A DNA stretch of 64,000 nucleotides, taken from Vigna angularis (lineage: Eukaryota; Streptophyta; Magnoliopsida; Fabales; Fabaceae). Made by a program: the position numbers and the translations under genes. The notes under the pieces were generated by a model. It saw nothing but the letters and a program-made list of their open reading frames with translations, did not search any database and was not told the origin of the DNA. Positions 988 to 58,225 of this stretch are shown here, piece after piece; positions within the stretch are counted from its first letter, which is position 1, and every line of letters begins with the position of its first letter. Location of the stretch: the NCBI RefSeq assembly GCF_016808095.1, contig NC_068978.1, positions 20,142,806 to 20,206,805 on the forward strand, written 5' to 3'.

Positions 988-1282
988 GGCTTAATACCTC
1001 TTTTTGTCCCTCTTTAGAAGGGAATTGTTCAATGTCGTCCTACCTTTTTCAAAAAGTTCAATATGGTCCCATGTTGTGAAAAAAGTGTCAAATTTAATCC
1101 TTTTTGGTCACGGCGTTAAATATTTAACGATCCTGCTGACAGCATGGACTAATGTGTGCAACGTGGCTTTTTACCTTGGTAACGTGGCAGTGACAGTTAC
1201 TGAGAACGTGGCAGTGGGCAGTGCAGTGATTAAAATTGTGAGCGTTAGGGTTTGGTTTGGGTAATTCCAAATCGCGATTTGG
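988..1282 (+). repeat. MULE1 left terminal inverted repeat
   Basis: This pairs with the reverse complement of 6733-7037, from GGCTTAATACC at the tip to AAATCGCGATTTG at the inner end. The transposase start codon lies about 295 bp further in, so its promoter probably lies in or next to this repeat. Confidence 0.9.
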
Positions 1283-1577
1283 GGATAAGCATTTTGGAGG
1301 ACCTTCAAATCCAAATTGGGTGATCTTGAAGGTGAAATTTGCAGAGGAAATCCAATTCCGCAAATCAAATCAGGTTAGAGGTTTTTCGAAAATGTTTTCA
1401 TTGTTGTCTTTTTTCAAAAAAATTTTCATTGTTGTCGCGTTTGAGGGGGGTTTAACTATGGGTGAAATTGTTTTCTGTGAAAAGTTGTCTTCTTTATATG
1501 CATGATAGTGGTCCCATAGGTCTTATTTTAACTGAAATTAGTGGTCCCCCGTTTGCATTTGTAGGGTTCGGGTAGGG

Positions 1578-4500
1578 ATGTCTGATGACATGTTTCGGGT
1601 AGTGGTCCACCATGGTGGGACCTTGATCAAAGAAGTCCCCTTTAATTATATAGGCGGAGAGATAGTTAATTGGGACGTAGACCCCGATAAATGGTGTTAT
1701 TTTGGAGTATTAGGTTCACTTAACCATATGGGATACATGCAAGTAGAAGAATTATATTACAGTGTCCAACATGTTCTACATAAGGTTGAGAATGATAAAG
1801 GAGCTATGAACATGATTAATGTGGCTAAGTATTTAGGGGAAGTGAACCTGTATGTTGTGCATGGGGTGGACGAAGCAACTATCTTAGAAAATGATGAGAA
1901 TGAGATTCATTTGCTATGTGAAGGGCATGCAGAGAGTGGTGAGGATAGTGGCGTAGGAGGAGAAGCACATGTTGAGGGTGGTGAAGAAGGAATGGAAGAC
2001 GTAGTGGAGGGTGCAGTGGAGGTTGAGAATGAGTATGCAGTGGATGTTGAGAATGAGGATGCACGGGATGTTGAGAATGTAAGTGAAGGATTGGAGGTTC
2101 CCAATAACGATTTATTGGATGTTGACAATGAGGATTGGTTGGATGTTGAGCATGACGATGCATTGGAGGTTGAGAAGGAGGATTCAGTGTATAATGAGGA
2201 TGTTCAGCATGAGGATGCAGAAGATGATGAGGTTGCAGTGGAGGTTGAGAATGAGGATTAAGTTGAGGATGTAAGTGAAAAAGCATTAGAAGTGGATACT
2301 GAGGCTGAAATTGAGGTCGAAAGTGAAGAAGAAGTGGAAGTGAACAGTGATGATGCAGCAGGAATGGATGATCTGAGTGGTGATGAATACGTGGATGATG
2401 AAGACAGTGAAAAAGAAACCCCACAATGTAGGGGTTTGTCAGATGATGATTGGGAGTCTGATAAGCTTTTAACTCCTGAAAATAGTGCAAGTGAGGAGGA
2501 TGACAATGATGATACAATAGATGTAGGTTCTTTCTCAAAGTATGCAAAGCAGAAGTCCATGGCAGATTACAAGTGGGAAGTGGGCACTATTTTTACTAAC
2601 AAGGAAGAGTTTAAGGATGCTATTAGAAGGTATGTTGTTCATGCTGGGAGGGATCTAAAATTTATCAAAAATGATAATCGTAGGGTGAGGGTGACATGCA
2701 TGGGTGGCCAAGGTAAGTGCCCATGGCTAGCTTATTGTGGTTATTTGCCGTCACGAAAAATTTGGCAATTGAGGAAGATAATTGATACTCATAGTTGTAG
2801 TAGACAACTTAATATTAAACTGATGAATGCTAAGTGGTTAAGTAAGGAAATAGATAGATCTATAGTTGAGAATCCTAGTTTAAAGGTCAATGATATTCGT
2901 TCTAAAGCATTAAGAAAATGGAATACAAATGTTTCAATATCCAAGGCAAGAAGGGCAAAGTTAATTGCCACAACACAGGTTGAAGGAGATTTCATAGAAC
3001 AATATAAAAGGGTGTACGACTATGGACATGAGCTGTTGAGGTGTAATCCAGGGTCAACAGTGCAAATTAAAGTTGACTCTCATAATGGTGACTCAATCTT
3101 TCAAAGAATGTATGTTTGTCTCAAAGCTTGTAAAGATAGTTTCATAAGTTGTAGGCCCATTATATGTTTAGACGGATGTTTTTTGAAAGGTGTTTACAAG
3201 GGGGAGCTGCTGACTGCTGTTGGTAGGGACCCAAACGACCAAATGGTACCCCTTGCCTATGCAGTAGTAGAAGTGGAGAACAAAGACAGCTGGACATGGT
3301 TTTTGCAATTATTAATTGAAGACCTCGGGGGCAGTCAAGTATGTGGAGGGTGCACATGGATGTCAGACCAGCAGAAGGTATAATGTGCAACTTATTTTCA
3401 TTTTTAGTTAATGATTTTGTATAGGATATGGTTTTATTACTAAATTTAATTGTGCAGGGGTTAGTCTTAGCTATCCAAGAGCTTTTGCCTCGGGCAGAAC
3501 AAAGATACTGTGTAAGGCACCTCTATGCAAACTTTAGGAAAAGGTTTGGTGGGCAGGTATTAAAAAATCTGATGTGGAGTGCTGCAACCACCACATATCC
3601 CCAGGCTTGGGAGAGAGAAATGCTGAAAATTAAAGAAGTCAATGTTGAAGCATATAAATACCTCATAGCCATTCCCCCAAGGTAACCCATTATATACACG
3701 TTACTGTCACAGATGCATTGTAACCCATTTGAGAATTATTTTTTTTCAACAGGTTTTGGTCAAGGTCTCGCTTCACAGCTCAACCAATGTGTGATACCCT
3801 TGATAACAACATGATAAGTGTGAAAAAGAGTAGTTTTTATACTTATTAATAAGCTCAATCTTGTAATTATTCATGTTGTTCCTCATTGAAAAGTTGTAAT
3901 AGGTAGTAGATTGTTATGTAAAATATTGTACAGGAAATGGTGTATTATTTAGACTCTGTCAGCCAATTTTCGCAAAGCGAAAGCCAAAATTCGCACTGCC
4001 TGCCAGAAGAAGAAAATTCGCATAGCGCACCGGTACCTGTGCGCTGAGCGAATAATATCAGTTAAAGTGCAGCAGTTAAGAAAATTCGCATAGCGCACCA
4101 GTACATGTGCGCTGAGCGAATTAATGAATTTAAGTGGCTTTAAAAGACGTGACAGAGCGACAAAAACATCTTCTTCTAAGAGAAGTTCCGGACAAAAGAA
4201 AGAAACGAAAACATCTCAGGAACTTCCGGAGACTACTTCCAAGGCATCAAGACACCATTTTTTGCAAGGGATTGCTTCAAATGTGTATGTTTAGATGACT
4301 AGGAGTAGTTTTTCTTTCGTTGGAATTGGATGTAATGAACTCACTGTGATGTACTTTTCCTGTTCAATATATCGTTGTTCGTTCATATACTCTTTCTTGA
4401 ATTTACTATCATTGTATGAAAATATAATGTTATTTGAATGTTTCTGATTACTGGAAAGTAACTTTGAACATGGACATAGATAGAGCACCTAAGTGATTTG

Positions 4501-5812
4501 GGATCTAGGGATAGACTCAATAACTTGGTCATTCTTAACATCGGACTTAATGCAAATTGTATGTTAAATTGATTAAGGGATTAGCATTTTGATATATTAA
4601 TTTAGAACTAGTTGCTAAGGGATTAGGACTAGTATGCCTTGATGTGAATGTTTGAATGAAATAATGATATATTGTACAGAGTTTTATCTTCATATGATTC
4701 ATGAAACTCAATTCCAACAAAGTTTCTTTTAAATATAAATTCCTTGCACACCAACTGTTTGATAAAATACCAAAAAGAGTTTCTTGTGTTATTTTTGTAC
4801 ACTTTGATGTCTAATTGAGTTATAAAAGGAAGAATTGTCATGTGTTGCACAAGTCCCTTGGGAGAACGATACTTTGAACTTACTCTATATTACTTGGAAC
4901 GATTTGGTATACTTGCCAAAAAGTTATCACAACATCACTGAAGCTTTCAACAGTGTCCTCATTCATGCAAGAGGAAAACCAATTATCACAATGATGGAGG
5001 ATATCAAAGTGTATCTCATGAAAAGGTGGGCCACAAACAGAAGCAAGGTGGCATCTATGGACTTCACAATATGCCCAAAGATAAAGAAGAGGCTTCAGAA
5101 AGAATGTAATTTGTCTAGATTTTGGCTGCCAAGGTAATCTTATCACCACAATTTATATACATTTTGTTATTTACGTTCATTGATGTGCTTTATTTCTTTC
5201 AGCTGGGTTGCACGAAAGATTTTTTAGGTTAGGCACACTTCATCTGTTGGGAACAAGTTCACAGTGGATCTGGACACTAAAGACTGTAGCTGCAGAAAGT
5301 GGATGATCAGTGGCGTCCCATGCTGTCATGCAATTGCAGCAATGAATTACTGTAATGTTCATCCAAAAAATTTTATACCCACTTGCTTCAGAAGATCCAC
5401 ATATGAAGAGGTGTATGCCTCCATAATTTTTCCACTCAATGGTCCCCAACTATGGCAAACCACAAATTTCAATGATGTTCTACCACCACTGATACGGAAG
5501 ATGCCTGGGAGGCCAAAGAAAAAACGCAAGTTGGAGGCATGGGAGTTAACTAAGGACGACACTCAAATGCGTGTTGGAGGGCATAGGAAAAAGTGTACCA
5601 TTTGTCGTCAGACAAAGCACAACAGGAATAAATGCCCTTTACGGCCCCAACCAGCAGAAGCAAACCACCCACCAGAAGCAACCCAGCCACTAGAACCAAC
5701 CCAGCCAACACAAACAACCCAGTCACCAGAAACAACACAACCAACCCAGCCACCTCCAACTTCCCAATCATCCCGTCCACCAAAATTCAGAGTCAGAAGA
5801 AAAGATAGATAG
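1578..5812 (+). pseudogene. MULE1 transposase gene, four exons, two stops and a solo LTR inserted
   Basis: Exons are approximately 1578-3377, 3458-3681, 3753-5133 (interrupted by a solo LTR) and 5203-5812, all with GT-AG borders. The N-terminus is a PB1-like domain (residues about 5-100), followed by a long acidic region of VENED-type repeats and a MuDR-type DNA-binding domain. The MULE DDE catalytic domain shows CLDGCFLKG, SDQQKGL and an EAFNS glutamate motif. A SWIM zinc finger (CSCRKWMISGVPCCHAIA) and a terminal CCHC knuckle (CTICRQTKHNRNKCP) with Pro/Thr-rich tail follow. TAA at 2259-2261 and TAG at 5225-5227 break the frame. With the LTR removed, the reading frame across its site is continuous. 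The enzyme would have cut and joined element ends in the nucleus. Confidence 0.93.
3812..4929. mobile_element. Solo LTR (1118 bp) inside the MULE1 transposase exon
   Basis: The segment starts TGATAAGTG, ends AGTTATCA, and is flanked by a 5-bp duplication CAACA (3807-3811 and 4930-4934). No internal coding region is present, so this is a recombined solo LTR, probably Ty3/gypsy type from its length. It contains two imperfect copies of a roughly 60-bp unit (about 4013-4125) with GCGCACCGGTAC and GCGCTGAGCGAA motifs. Insertion separated the DNN codons from the TEAFNS codons of the transposase. Confidence 0.9.
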
Positions 5813-6265
5813 ATAGGTGAATTGGTTTATTATGTACTGTACTGTCTTTATTTTGGTAACAGACATGTATTGTCTTTTTAGATGAATTGGAGGTTATATG
5901 TATTCAATATCATGTACTTTGGTGACAAACTTGTACTGCCTTTATTTAATGAACCAAAGTGCTTTCATCATGTTTTGGTCAAAGCTTGTATTTAGATTTG
6001 TAATATGTTCCATTAGTCCTCAGTCATATGCATTATTGGGTTGACCTGTTCCAACATTTTTAAACCAAATGGGGGACTGATTCGAACATTTTCTACATTG
6101 CATTGCATTGCATAACTGATATTACACCAACCAAAACACCTTCGCATTGTCAACGTACTTTTTTCAAGCATCCAAATACATAACAGGTATTAAGCCAACT
6201 TATAACAAACACCCAAATTCACGATCTAACTAAATCAACCTAACCACAACTTCAAAATTACAAGG

Positions 6266-6723
6266 TCAACCACAATACACACACAAAGCTACAACTAACA
6301 ACTTCATCATTTTCTGGATTTTCTGCAAATCCTTCACTGCATTTTCCAGCTCACTTATTCTCTTCAGAATTGTGCAATCTTTTTCATCCACGTTGTCTTC
6401 ACAACACCACTTGAAAAAGTTACAGTAGTTCCCAATTGAAGATCCACCCTGTTATTCACCATGTTAGGGAATGTATGAACAAATCCATCAAATCAACTAA
6501 ACAAAACATTAACTGAGAAGGGTATACTTCAAACCTTGTAATGAGGACAACCCCAAAAATTTCTCCCAGCATTCTTCGTAGTTTTGGCCACTTTCATTAC
6601 TGCAATATCACCACAGTAACAAGTAGGGATTAACCCACCTCCCCTACAAGCACCACCATGGGACGAACCAGAAGATCCTTTGGCCCAGCTTTTCGAAAAC
6701 GAAGAACACCCTTGGGAACCCAT
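6266..6723 (-). CDS. MULE1 GRF-type zinc-finger protein, two exons, 123 aa
   Basis: Coding segments are 6535-6723 and 6266-6448 on the minus strand, joined across a GT-AG intron in phase 0. The protein has a Ser/Gly-rich start, then a GRF zinc finger with cysteines in CYCG, FWGCPHYK and NYCNFFKWC, then a predicted coiled coil of about 30 residues, and a short hydrophobic end (KLLVVALCVYCG). GRF fingers in known proteins bind single-stranded DNA or other nucleic acid; the role here is unknown. The start codon lies about 10 bp inside the right TIR, so the TIR must supply promoter and leader. The C-terminus is shorter than in the MULE2 homologue, so the membrane segment may be truncated. Confidence 0.82.
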
Positions 6724-6732
6724 TCTAAATCC

Positions 6733-7037
6733 TCAAATCGCGATTTGGAATTACCCAAACCAAACCCTAACGCTCACAATTTTAATCACTGCACTGCCCA
6801 CTGCCATGTTCTCAGTTAATGACAAACACTGTCACTGCCACGTTACCAAGGTAAAAAGCCACGTTGCACACATCAGTCCACTCTGTCAGCAGGATCGTTA
6901 AATATTTAACGCCGTGACCAAAAAGGATTAAATTGGACACTTTTTTCACAACGTGGGACCATATTGAAATTTTTGAAAAAGGTAGGACGACATTGAACAA
7001 TTCCCTTCTAAAGAGGGACAAAAAAAGGTATTAAGTC
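6733..7037 (-). repeat. MULE1 right terminal inverted repeat
   Basis: This is the inverted copy of 988-1282. It carries a small extra stretch, TGTTTGTCATTA-like near 6817-6830, that the left copy lacks. It abuts the start codon of the GRF gene. Confidence 0.9.
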
Positions 7038-54205: not shown

Positions 54206-54263
54206 GTCCAATTTTTTTTTGTATAATTTAGAAGTTTTATAATTTATTAGCTTTTAGATATTT

Positions 54264-54927
54264 GGTTTAATTGCTTCCTTTGTCCCCACTTTGGTTGAAT
54301 TGTGTCAAATTCATCCTCATTTTTAAAAAAGTTTCATTGTCATCCTCACGTGGTGTAAAAGTGTCAATTGAATCCAAACATTGGAAATATTTGTGTCAAT
54401 GTAGTCTTCTCCGTTAACTACACACTAACTGCGTTAAGTGGCTGATTATTTGGCACTAAAGAAGTAAAACGTGGCAAATGAGTCACAGTAGTGGTTGTGA
54501 CGTGTTTGGTGATTTGTATTTAGGGTATTTGTACACTAAAGAATTAAAATCAGAATTCATTTAGGGTATTTCCATTTGTGAACGAAGTGCGATTGGGGCT
54601 TTTGAAAGCAGAGCGCGTTTGGTGATTTGGAAGCGTTTGGTGCTTTGGAAGTGCGAAGTGGGTTCCATTCGAAGGTCCATTCGAAGGTACGTGTACATTG
54701 CTTTCGTTGGGTTTATGGTTGCTTTGGTGTGTGTGTTTGCTTCGTGTGTGTGTTTGCTTTTGTTGTGGTCCCCCATGAACTATTATCTCTGTTTGTTGTT
54801 GTCCCCCATTATGGGTGTTGTGTGTGGTCCCCCATTGTAGGTTAAAGTCAATCTTTATGCTGTGTTTAGGGTTCAGTACAAATTTGTTTTAATTGTTTAT
54901 GGTCTGTTTAAAGTGCTTTGTGGAAGT
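54264..54927 (+). repeat. MULE2 left terminal inverted repeat, 664 bp
   Basis: Inverted copy of 57553-58216. The transposase start is 122 bp inside its inner end. Open frames within it (54619-54840 and others) are mirrored in the right repeat and are not taken as genes. Confidence 0.96.
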
Positions 54928-55048
54928 GTTGTACCCTGATGGGTTGACAGTCGTATCCTGATATGTAAATGTAGTGTTATTTTGGTCAATTAAATGTAGT
55001 GTTATTTGGGTAAAGTTAGACTGACATGATTTTTTATATTAGTTTAGG

Positions 55049-56785
55049 ATGCCTAACTGTGATGTCGAAGTGGTCTTTCACCATGGGGGCAAATTTGTGA
55101 ATGATGGGTCATTTAAATATGAGTTTGGTCAAACATCTACTTTAAAAATTGACCCAGATAGATGGAGCTACTTTGAAATTATGTCCATTTTGAAGGAGAT
55201 GGGCTATATTAATGTTAAAGAGTTGTGGTATGCAGTGGGTGGTGGTACTGTGTTAGAAGGAAGGTTAGAACTATTATCTGATGACAAGGGTGCATGTCAT
55301 CTGGTCAACCTTGCCATTTTGAATGGTCAATCTCACCTGTATGTTGTACACATGGTGTCAGATCCTGAGTACGTTCATATGTTGGGGGAGGGTGACAGTG
55401 ATAATCGTGTAGAGGTAGAGTGTGAGGAAGAGTGTGAGAAGGCTGTTTTGGGGGAGGGTGTACAGGCTGACAATGATAATTGTGTGGAGGCAGAGGCTGA
55501 GGGAGACACTGATGGGGCTGTTTTGGGGGAGGGTGTACAGGCTGACAATGATAACATTGTGGAGGCAGAGGTTGTGGGAGAGGATGTTGGGGCTGGTTTG
55601 GGGGAGGGTGTAGAGGCTGTTAATGATAACTTTGTGGAGGCAGAGGCTGAGGGAGAGGTTGTTGGGGCTGTTTTGGGGGAGGGTGTAGAGGCTGACAGTG
55701 ATAACTTTGTGGATGCAGAGGCTGAGGGAGAGGATGTTGGGGCTGTTTTAGGAGAGGGTGTAGAGGCTGACAGTGATAATTTTGTGGAGGCAGAGGCTGA
55801 GAGAGAGGATGGGGGACATGATGACTACGATGTTAGAAGTTGGAATGGAGATGAAGAGGATGTGTTGAGTGAAGATGATTTTTGTAACCGTAGTGAGGAA
55901 GTTGAAGTGGGTGGACCAAGTGGGAAGTGTCCTCCATTACAGCATGTACATGACAGAGGTTTATCTGACAATTCTTGGGAATCTGAAAGTTTAGACAGCG
56001 TTGTATTAAGTGATTCATCAAATGATGATAGAGACCGTTATGGAAATTTTGGCATTTTTTCATTGCCCAAAAGTATGGAACACTATAACTGGGAAGTGGG
56101 GACATTCTTCAGTGAAAAAAAAGATTTCACAGAAGCAATAAGAAGCTACGGTGTAGACAATGGTAGGAAATTGAAGGTTTTTAAAAATGATAAAACAAGA
56201 GTTTCTGTTAAATGTTGTGGGGCAAAAGGGAAGTGCCCATGGTACGCATATTGTGCATATAAGGCTGCCCAAAATACATGGCAGTTAAGGAAGATTATAA
56301 ACAAGCATACCTGCAGTAGAGAATTTAATGTGCGTTTAGTGACATCAAAATGGTTAAGTGGGAGGTTAGAGAAGACCATAAAAGAAAATCCAAATATTAA
56401 TTTGACTAACCTCCAAAACAAAGTTTGTAAGAAATGGAATATTAATGTGTCTCGGTCAACAACCTTTAGGGCAAAGAAAATGGCACACAAGAAAATTGAA
56501 GGTGATTTTGAAGAACAATATAAAAGGGTATATGACTATGCCAATGAGCTGCTTAGGTCAAATCCTGGATCAACTGTCAAAGTTAGTGTAGAACCTAACG
56601 AGGGGAACCAAGTATTCAAGAGACTTTATGTTTGTTTGAAGGCATGTAAGGTGAGTTTCATATCATGTAGGCCCATTGTAGGTTTGGATGGGTGTTTCTT
56701 GAAAGGGAAATATGGGGGTGAATTGTTAACAGCAGTTGGAAGAGATGGTAATGACCAAATGTTACCTTTGTACAGTAGCCATTAA
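55049..56785 (+). CDS. MULE2 transposase, truncated in the catalytic domain, 578 aa
   Basis: The product starts MPNCDVEVVFHHGGKFV, a PB1-like domain (about residues 3-105). Five 25-residue acidic repeats follow (AVLGEGVEADSDNFVEAEAE type, residues about 132-256), then a MuDR-type DNA-binding domain with NWEVGTFFSEKKDFTEAI and CxC/H features, and the first catalytic block VGLDGCFLKGKYGGELL. After DGNDQMLPL the frame runs into unrelated sequence and stops at YSSH. The second and third catalytic blocks, SWIM finger and CCHC knuckle seen in MULE1 are absent. The protein could still bind DNA but should not cut it, so it might act as a repressor. It has no internal stop and no intron. Confidence 0.9.
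   Translation: MPNCDVEVVFHHGGKFVNDGSFKYEFGQTSTLKIDPDRWSYFEIMSILKEMGYINVKELWYAVGGGTVLEGRLELLSDDKGACHLVNLAILNGQSHLYVVHMVSDPEYVHMLGEGDSDNRVEVECEEECEKAVLGEGVQADNDNCVEAEAEGDTDGAVLGEGVQADNDNIVEAEVVGEDVGAGLGEGVEAVNDNFVEAEAEGEVVGAVLGEGVEADSDNFVDAEAEGEDVGAVLGEGVEADSDNFVEAEAEREDGGHDDYDVRSWNGDEEDVLSEDDFCNRSEEVEVGGPSGKCPPLQHVHDRGLSDNSWESESLDSVVLSDSSNDDRDRYGNFGIFSLPKSMEHYNWEVGTFFSEKKDFTEAIRSYGVDNGRKLKVFKNDKTRVSVKCCGAKGKCPWYAYCAYKAAQNTWQLRKIINKHTCSREFNVRLVTSKWLSGRLEKTIKENPNINLTNLQNKVCKKWNINVSRSTTFRAKKMAHKKIEGDFEEQYKRVYDYANELLRSNPGSTVKVSVEPNEGNQVFKRLYVCLKACKVSFISCRPIVGLDGCFLKGKYGGELLTAVGRDGNDQMLPLYSSH
55442..55816 (+). repeat. 75-bp tandem repeat in the MULE2 transposase, five copies
   Basis: Each unit encodes 25 residues beginning AVLGEGV and ending in a run of acidic residues. 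The copies are in frame and differ by a few substitutions, with the 3' copies most alike. MULE1 has a related acidic region built of shorter VENED-type units. Confidence 0.93.
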
Positions 56786-57044
56786 ATTGTTGCTGTCATC
56801 AAATTTGAATTTAGCTGTCATCAAATTTGAATTTATTTTATTGGCTGCATGTTATATTTGGAGAGTTTACTTAGCTGTCATCAAATTGTTCCTGTCTCAA
56901 CCATATCACTACAACTTAACTATTGAAAGAACATCCACCTTCTTCAACAATATCACTGCCAATTAGCTATTGAAAGCAGAAATTCAGATTTTTCATTCAT
57001 TTTCAACAACTGTCTAATACAACACATTGTCTAATACAAAATAG

Positions 57045-57533
57045 TCATGGAATTTTAAACAAGATACAAACAAGGATCACATTAATAAACCCCATAAAAC
57101 ATAGCATCCATGTTAATTGCTTCTCCCATTTCTGAGAAACCATAGCAGATTTCTCCAGACTAATAATTTTCCTCCTTTGCCTAGCAATAATAGTATCCCT
57201 TTCATCCAAATTAGCTTCATTGCACCATTTAAAATAATTGCATCCTTGAAGTTCTTCGTTTCGAGTCCGCTGTTCAAAACATCCAACCACAAACATTTCA
57301 TTACTCAAAAAATAAACTAATCACTAAAATGAAACTACAGCCATTGAACAAACCTTGTAATTAGGGCATCCCCAAAATTGTTTGCCTTCGTTCTTCACAG
57401 TTTTCGCCACTCTCAACACAGCAACTTCCCCACAATGACATATGTTAGTTTGAACCAATCCTCTGGATGAAACGGCACGACAGCTCCCCCATGAGCAAGA
57501 CGAACAACACTGATGAGTCAATGACATTGCCAC
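57045..57533 (-). CDS. MULE2 GRF-type zinc-finger membrane protein, two exons, 134 aa
   Basis: Minus-strand exons 57354-57533 and 57045-57269 join in phase 0 across an 84-bp GT-AG intron. The intron position matches that in MULE1. The protein has a Cys/Ser-rich start, a GRF finger with cysteines in ICHCGEVAV, FWGCPNYK, LQGCNYFKWC, a coiled-coil-like basic stretch (RQRRKIISLEKS), and a C-terminal hydrophobic helix WMLCFMGFINVILVCILF. The frame is fully open. The start codon is 20 bp from the inner edge of the right TIR, so TIR DNA must drive it. Related small GRF proteins are common in plant genomes as uncharacterised genes. Function is unknown; possible roles in transposition or silencing escape are inference. 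Confidence 0.88.
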
Positions 57534-57552
57534 TTCCTAAGCCAACGAAAAA

Positions 57553-58216
57553 ACTTCCACAAAGCACTTTAAACAGACCATAAACAATTAAAACAAATTT
57601 GTACTGAACCCTAAACACAGCATAAAGATTGACTTTAACCTACAATGGGGGACCACACACAACACCCATAATGGGGGACAACAACAAACAGAGATAATAG
57701 TTCATGGGGGACCACAACAAAAGCAAACACACACACGAAGCAAACACACACACCAAAGCAACCATAAAACCAACGAAAGCAATGTACACGTACCTTCGAA
57801 TGGACCTTCGAATGGAACCCACTTCACACTTCCAAAGCACCAAACGCTTCCAAATGACCAAACGCGCTCTGCTTTCAAAAGCCCCAATCGCACTTCGTTC
57901 ACAAATAGAAATACCCTAAATGAATTCTGATTTTAATTCTTTAGTGTACAAATACCCTAAATACAAATCACCAAACACGTCACAACCACTACTGTGACTC
58001 ATTTGCCACGTTTTACTTCTTTAGTGCCAAATAATCAGTCACTTAACGCAGTTAGTGTGTAGTTAACGGAGATGACTACATTGACACAAATATTTCCAAT
58101 GTTTGGATTCAATTGACACTTTTACACCACGTGAGGATGACAATGAAACTTTTTTAAAAATGAGGATGAATTTGACACAATTCAACCAAAGTGGGGACAA
58201 AGGAAGCAATTAAACC
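57553..58216 (-). repeat. MULE2 right terminal inverted repeat, 664 bp
   Basis: Inverted copy of 54264-54927. It holds the presumed promoter and leader of the GRF gene. Confidence 0.96.
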
Positions 58217-58225
58217 TAGATATTT

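Follow-up and report, generated by a model that had tools for sequence, protein, structure and literature searches.

The question raised by a stretch of the adzuki bean genome (Vigna angularis; assembly GCF_016808095.1, contig NC_068978.1, positions 20,142,806 to 20,206,805 of the forward strand; a window of 64,000 nucleotides, in whose own coordinates positions are given below) is whether the second gene found in two of its Mutator-like elements (MULEs), which encodes a GRF zinc-finger protein, is a working part of these transposons or a chance capture. In both elements, B (54264-58216) and A (988-7037), a MuDR-type transposase is convergent with a two-exon GRF gene starting at the other terminal inverted repeat (TIR). 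Taken as a whole, the evidence is best explained by a lineage of MuDR-type MULEs with two facing genes, in which the GRF protein is probably an accessory factor of transposition. As judged from genomic sequence comparison, the GRF gene occurs widely in this genome, has been inherited together with the transposase and is under purifying selection.

Element B, which is bounded by long TIRs and a target-site duplication (TSD), is organised as follows.

54255 to 54263, no strand: left TSD, TAGATATTT
54264 to 58216, no strand: element B, an internally deleted two-gene MULE with TIRs and a 9-bp TSD
54264 to 54927, plus strand: left TIR
55043 to 56785, plus strand: 5' part of the transposase gene, cut near 56770 by the internal deletion
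57045 to 57269, minus strand: GRF exon 2, with the last Cys, the long helix, the hydrophobic C-terminal tail and the stop
57270 to 57353, minus strand: GRF intron, 84 nt, GT..AG, phase 0
57354 to 57527, minus strand: GRF exon 1, with the GRF ribbon and its first three Cys
57553 to 58216, minus strand: right TIR, whose inner edge precedes the GRF start codon by 26 bp
58217 to 58225, no strand: right TSD, TAGATATTT

The B TIRs, of ~665 nt, are 98.8% identical (the BLAST alignment, 671 nt, extends a few bases into the TSD), and the 9-bp TSD, TAGATATTT, is perfect at both ends. The transposase open reading frame (ORF) at 55043-56785 on the plus strand matches PF03108 (E 1e-8, Pfam), with DBD_Tnp_Mut the sole domain above the cut-off; comparison with locus L037, a copy on another chromosome that is ~99% identical to B, indicates that the MULE domain is represented by its beginning only. 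L037 is the longer of the two and has DBD_Tnp_Mut, MULE DDE and SWIM domains, and relative to it B has undergone an internal deletion of ~2.6 kb that took nearly all of the DDE region together with SWIM; since this deletion truncates the transposase, B is non-autonomous. The GRF gene of B is free of stops and frameshifts. Its PF06839 match is split across the exons: exon 1 matches with E 1.4e-7, and exon 2 matches the end of the model only (0.0063, below the cut-off).

Element A lies near the other end of the window and consists of the following features.

988 to 7037, no strand: element A (locus L017), a MULE of the same two-gene design as B, with TIRs and TSD TTTTTTGAAA
988 to 1286, plus strand: left TIR
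1542 to 3383, plus strand: 5' part of the transposase, with DBD_Tnp_Mut and MULE domains and one in-frame stop
5228 to 5812, plus strand: 3' part of the transposase, with the SWIM zinc finger
6266 to 6448, minus strand: GRF exon 2, its frame broken in the hydrophobic tail of this copy
6535 to 6723, minus strand: GRF exon 1
6729 to 7037, minus strand: right TIR, with 6 bp between its inner edge and the GRF start codon

Here the TIRs are of ~310 nt (93.6% identity over 312 nt) with a 10-bp TSD, TTTTTTGAAA, and the transposase pieces match PF10551, PF03108 and SWIM (Pfam). GRF exon 1 matches PF06839 (E 5e-8); exon 2 taken alone gave no GRF match in Pfam, and the joined protein of P0010, the nearest annotated relative of A, matches the same model with E 2.7e-11. 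The in-frame stop in the transposase separates ORFs 1542-2261 and 2262-3383, and the GRF tail carries a frameshift. Both window copies are thus damaged; both A and B have relatives that are free of stops in the part of the transposase that was searched.

Both elements show the marks of the MULE/MuDR superfamily, namely long TIRs, a TSD of 8-11 bp (9 bp in B, 10 bp in A) and the domain set DBD_Tnp_Mut, MULE DDE and SWIM, the last present in the A pieces and, for the B type, in L037. The initial annotation had described the transposases as PB1-like/MULE. PF03108 in both, with PF10551 and SWIM in A, agrees with the second half of that label, whereas the PB1-like half is unconfirmed, as the N-termini of A and B matched no Pfam model at E up to 5. 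Its proposal that the two MULEs share a design of convergent transposase and two-exon GRF gene is upheld by the TIRs, the TSDs, the PF06839 matches and an identical phase-0 intron site.

Element B also contains ~120 bp near 56905-57020 that are absent from L037; they lie ~135 bp from the internal-deletion point, with short repeats nearby, and may be filler DNA from break repair. Within the B transposase ORF, tandem repeats of ~75 nt at 55389-55811 give rise to acidic repeats in the protein, and looser repeats occur in A at 2007-2263.

To place the two copies in their genomic setting, the genome was searched with the PF06839 profile (the best 150 of 784 candidates were scored) and with the A transposase (best 110 of 1396) and B transposase (95 rows from 75 scored of 1575), the matches of the two transposase queries being merged into 172 listed loci. 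A listed GRF match lies within 10 kb of 59 of these 172, in every one of the 59 downstream, on the opposite strand and convergent, with a median gap of 2.2 kb and one gap of 9.9 kb. Random placement averaged 1.17 pairings over 500 trials and never exceeded 7, and chance pairing is therefore rejected. As copies of one family are not independent, the count shows that the design is fixed in families rather than how often it has arisen.

Direct reading raised this count, B itself being one of the 113 transposase loci without a GRF among the matches listed. In the best 20 A-transposase matches (L017-L036, that is A and 19 relatives) GRF exon 1 is present in 20/20, including eight without a listed GRF, exon 2 in 19/20 (it was not found in L026) and TIRs in 18/20; a TSD (8-10 bp, no more than one mismatch) was found in 14/20, by a search that allowed slack at the ends, such that short T-rich single cases (L033) may be chance. 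Six further loci were picked randomly out of 104 that have no listed GRF, and four carry the gene in the expected place and strand, one of them (L045) with stops in its GRF exons. In total, at least 73 of the 172 listed loci carry GRF; together with the 19/19 read besides A, this bears out, within this genome, the expectation that close relatives possess the gene. It is also carried by the divergent elements L037-L041, in transposase lineages whose identity to the A or B query is only ~43-61% (L038-L041), although L038-L041 are no test of prevalence because they were chosen for having a listed GRF.

The position of the intron provides a further shared character. The GRF introns of A and B (86 and 84 nt, GT..AG) are in phase 0 and follow the Tyr-Lys of CP(N/H)YK. 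A GT..AG intron of 81-86 nt stands right after Tyr-Lys in 17 of the 20 A-type loci as well as in B, the exceptions being L033 and L035, where the match stops before the junction, and L026 with its missing exon 2; L039-L041 have the intron at the same site. The distance from the GRF start codon to the inner edge of the right TIR is 26 bp in B, 6 bp in A and 164 bp in L038.

A GRF subfamily comprising L001-L008 and L038:4610-5002 shows exact intron loss at this conserved splice site. L001-L008 are near-identical and are the eight top-scoring PF06839 matches in the genome, and the intron is absent exactly at the site in 8/8; given that near-identity, they probably descend from a single intron loss. 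Their sequences suggest cDNA-mediated conversion inside a DNA transposon as the simplest cause, and conversion by a spliced cDNA would mean that the GRF gene was transcribed and spliced.

Trees of the transposase (DDE core plus SWIM) and of the GRF protein for 13 elements contain the same deep clades: L037 with L038, L040 with L039 and L041, and L035/L036 next to the A group (the L037 GRF protein used is partial, ending within exon 1). The corresponding Mantel correlation is r 0.955 (p 0.0002), a value raised by the fact that 8/13 elements come from the A group or the neighbouring L035/L036; with seven representatives it is r 0.82 (exact p 0.0008). Shallow branches within the A group have poor support and are not the same in the two trees. 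The predicted co-inheritance of GRF with transposase is hence supported within this genome, the pair being present and co-inherited in all six of the diverged lineages that were read (A, B, L038, L039, L040 and L041). Since the deep branches agree, two independent acquisitions are rejected, and the pairing looks like one old ancestral event, vertically inherited, as far as the trees can be read. The initial annotation had counted the occurrence in two separate subfamilies as independent evidence, an argument that is not supported. Its conclusion, function rather than chance capture, is supported on other grounds: because the pairing looks like one ancestral event, function is argued from the trees and from selection, not from recurrence.

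Selection was estimated as the pairwise NG86 ratio of non-synonymous to synonymous substitution rates (dN/dS) with a Fisher test, on pairs that share branches and so are not independent. Across informative pairs the GRF ratio is 0.24-0.59. The best pairs, L037-L038 (0.24; transposase 0.26), B-L038 (0.28) and L024-L035 (0.30; transposase 0.25), have Fisher p of 8e-7 to 5e-4, in line with the purifying selection that had been anticipated; L039-L040 gives 0.39 (p 6e-5) and L040-L041 gives 0.25 at a dS of 2.6. Synonymous sites are saturated in two pairs between A and the B side.

The encoded protein is recognisably a GRF zinc finger, with PF06839 scores above the Pfam cut-off in exon 1 of A, B and relatives, and the four Cys of the ribbon are invariant in 21/21 aligned homologues. 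Its predicted structure consists of a three-stranded ribbon and one helix (80-129), with block means of 78-97 in pLDDT (predicted local distance difference test); overall, mean pLDDT is 73.9 and the predicted template-modelling score (pTM) is 0.34. Profile matches in the PDB are the GRF fingers of NEIL3 (E 4e-4) and APE2 (E 8e-3), which, with the APE2 and NEIL3 GRF fingers as top PDB matches of the predicted fold (E 0.06, Foldseek), points to the same zinc ribbon. In NEIL3 and APE2, however, GRF is a domain of repair enzymes, whereas the Vigna protein is a stand-alone transposon product that has a long helix and, in most homologues, a hydrophobic tail. This tail, defined as a 19-residue hydropathy peak of at least 1.6 lying no more than 30 residues from the C-terminus, occurs in 14 of 21 annotated homologues, including P0010 and P0016 of the A group, and peaks at 2.5-3.0 in B and L038-L041. 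From its composition the tail is predicted to span a membrane. The GRF of NEIL3 binds single-stranded and forked DNA, according to passages of PMC9266487.

A search of protein databases, which gives no neighbourhood context and misses relatives sharing no short words, returned named relatives chiefly from Vigna, plus Flemingia and Cajanus, with weak matches in Acacia, Shorea and Glycine soja. GRF-family sequence also occurs within proteins with host names, namely an SMC5-like protein (P0035, Cajanus) and an ATPase 4 (P0034, Vigna), or lies beside PF05691 (P0073, Flemingia); these may be annotation fusions or exaptation. At C8:2556946-2651289, five GRF matches in the same orientation are spaced ~23-24 kb apart, as if by tandem duplication of a larger unit carrying the gene.

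Since evolution has kept the GRF gene working, it probably assists in jumping and is no stray passenger, and a mechanism for such a helper may be outlined. A TIR-promoter layout is familiar from MuDR; with the GRF start codon only 6-26 bp inside the right TIR of A and B, each long TIR would act as promoter of one gene. The zinc ribbon has relatives in the GRF fingers of NEIL3 and APE2, which bind single strands, and would grip the single-stranded or forked DNA that excision or integration lays bare; the long helix could dimerise the protein or dock it on the transposase, and the hydrophobic tail could fix it to a membrane, for instance the nuclear envelope. Overall, the effect might be that reported for MURB, promotion of insertion rather than of excision. 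Pressed to its fullest form, this outline would describe a transposon-encoded, membrane-anchored, single-strand-DNA-binding protein that tethers intermediates or transposase at the nuclear envelope and so steers reinsertion; we offer this form tentatively, with perhaps little better than a one-in-five sense of its being right, and know of no described counterpart.

Several results weigh against an accessory role in transposition. In two of the six randomly drawn loci the 1.7 kb read contained no GRF match, and for 91 of the 150 listed GRF matches no transposase is listed in the vicinity. Constraint on GRF is weaker in L017-L035 and L017-L036 (0.51 in both, p 0.06; transposase 0.28 and 0.31), in L030-L036 (0.59, p 0.14; transposase 0.48) and in L039-L041 (0.51, p 0.001; transposase 0.13), and several close pairs are near or above 1 (A-group range 0.25-1.59, with few changes), a scatter as expected of decaying copies. 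The Foldseek E-values, at 0.06-0.12, are borderline. Seven of the 21 homologues depart from the tail definition, six having no peak and one a peak 57 residues from the end, which may reflect gene-model errors or real losses; where present, a membrane tail would be odd in a nuclear transposition factor. Finally, the antisense second gene of the grass Abermu elements, ORFR, is absent from polymorphic rice copies in the account of PMC9168764, and a second gene therefore need not be essential.

Among the alternatives, the best placed is that the GRF protein is an anti-silencing factor, shielding the TIRs from host methylation with no part in cutting or joining. VANC of the Arabidopsis VANDAL elements is such an anti-silencing accessory protein of MULEs, so the role has a precedent, and non-autonomous B keeps an open GRF gene despite its cut transposase. 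Nevertheless, known relatives of the GRF fold bind single-stranded DNA, the fold is not, to our knowledge, a demethylation domain, and a hydrophobic tail would be unexpected in a chromatin factor; we regard this explanation as unlikely. Retention of the whole gene by the deletion derivative B, and of exon 1 by the short copy L026 (exon 2 not found), would equally suit a role in self-regulation, in which the protein curbs the transposase or competes with it for DNA, limiting copy damage, and the GRF fingers of NEIL3 reportedly inhibit its catalytic activity (passages of PMC9266487). Loss of such a brake might, however, be expected in selfish lineages, yet GRF is present in 6/6 lineages read (four of them, L038-L041, picked by GRF), which leaves self-regulation the more doubtful of the two.

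MULEs with antisense second genes include those carrying mudrB, PMD and the Abermu ORFR, and the Vigna gene might be a fast-evolving true homologue of the first. The Vigna elements resemble maize MuDR in their long TIRs, 9-bp TSD, MuDR-type transposase and opposite-strand gene pair, as given in excerpts of PMC2725143 and PMC9168764, and their second gene has the position, orientation and relation to the TIR of mudrB. MULE accessory genes can moreover evolve fast, ORFR similarity being lost between distant species in the portions of PMC9168764 cited. The Vigna second gene nonetheless encodes a GRF-ribbon, long-helix protein, and mudrB and GRF were not found together in open-licence PMC literature; homology to mudrB seems improbable, somewhat more so than self-regulation. 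Passages of PMC2725143 restrict mudrB to Zea and describe the function of MURB as undetermined. It was nevertheless an overstatement to treat the accessory slot as special to maize, because parts of PMC6446971 and PMC9168764 list genes of this antisense accessory kind in several clades of plant MULEs. The former (Dupeyron 2019) reports an antisense PMD ORF in most elements of clades such as MUDR, and often in MUDRAVI2, its domain being other than the GRF of the Vigna elements, and mentions vanB and vanC as extra ORFs. In the latter (Gao et al. 2022), ORFR lies antisense between the transposase and the 3' TIR (type II), a close likeness to the layout here, with Ka/Ks 0.39-0.56. ORFR, however, is described there in grasses, without a named domain and without sequence conservation between distant species, unlike the Vigna second gene, which forms one recognisable family across the lineages read. 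The main texts of the two papers contain no occurrence of GRF, and a GRF second gene in MULEs was not found in the open-licence PMC literature, a scope outside which subscription papers and Repbase fall; where GRF did turn up there, the subject was NEIL1/NEIL3 or Arabidopsis embryogenesis.

That GRF is a functionless passenger, captured once from the host in Pack-MULE style, is rejected as very improbable: MULEs do capture host genes, GRF proteins exist outside transposons too, and several pairs have dN/dS of only 0.5-0.6 (p 0.06-0.14), but purifying selection is significant in several pairs (Fisher p down to 8e-7), the gene is present across transposase lineages that share only ~43-61% identity with the A or B query, it is co-inherited with the transposase, and, unlike in Pack-MULEs, the transposase lies inside the same elements as a constrained GRF.

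An accessory role in transposition is thus the reading we favour, and what appears to be new is the GRF gene as second gene of an otherwise known two-gene MULE design. A membrane-type tail, if real, would be surprising for a cut-and-paste transposon. Because the annotated Vigna proteins P0031 and P0010 correspond to GRF genes that lie within elements read in this analysis, at least some Vigna genes annotated as 'GRF-type' or uncharacterised are transposon genes. With its recognisable fold, many copies and dN/dS signal, the GRF protein offers a testable handle on the accessory proteins of MULEs.

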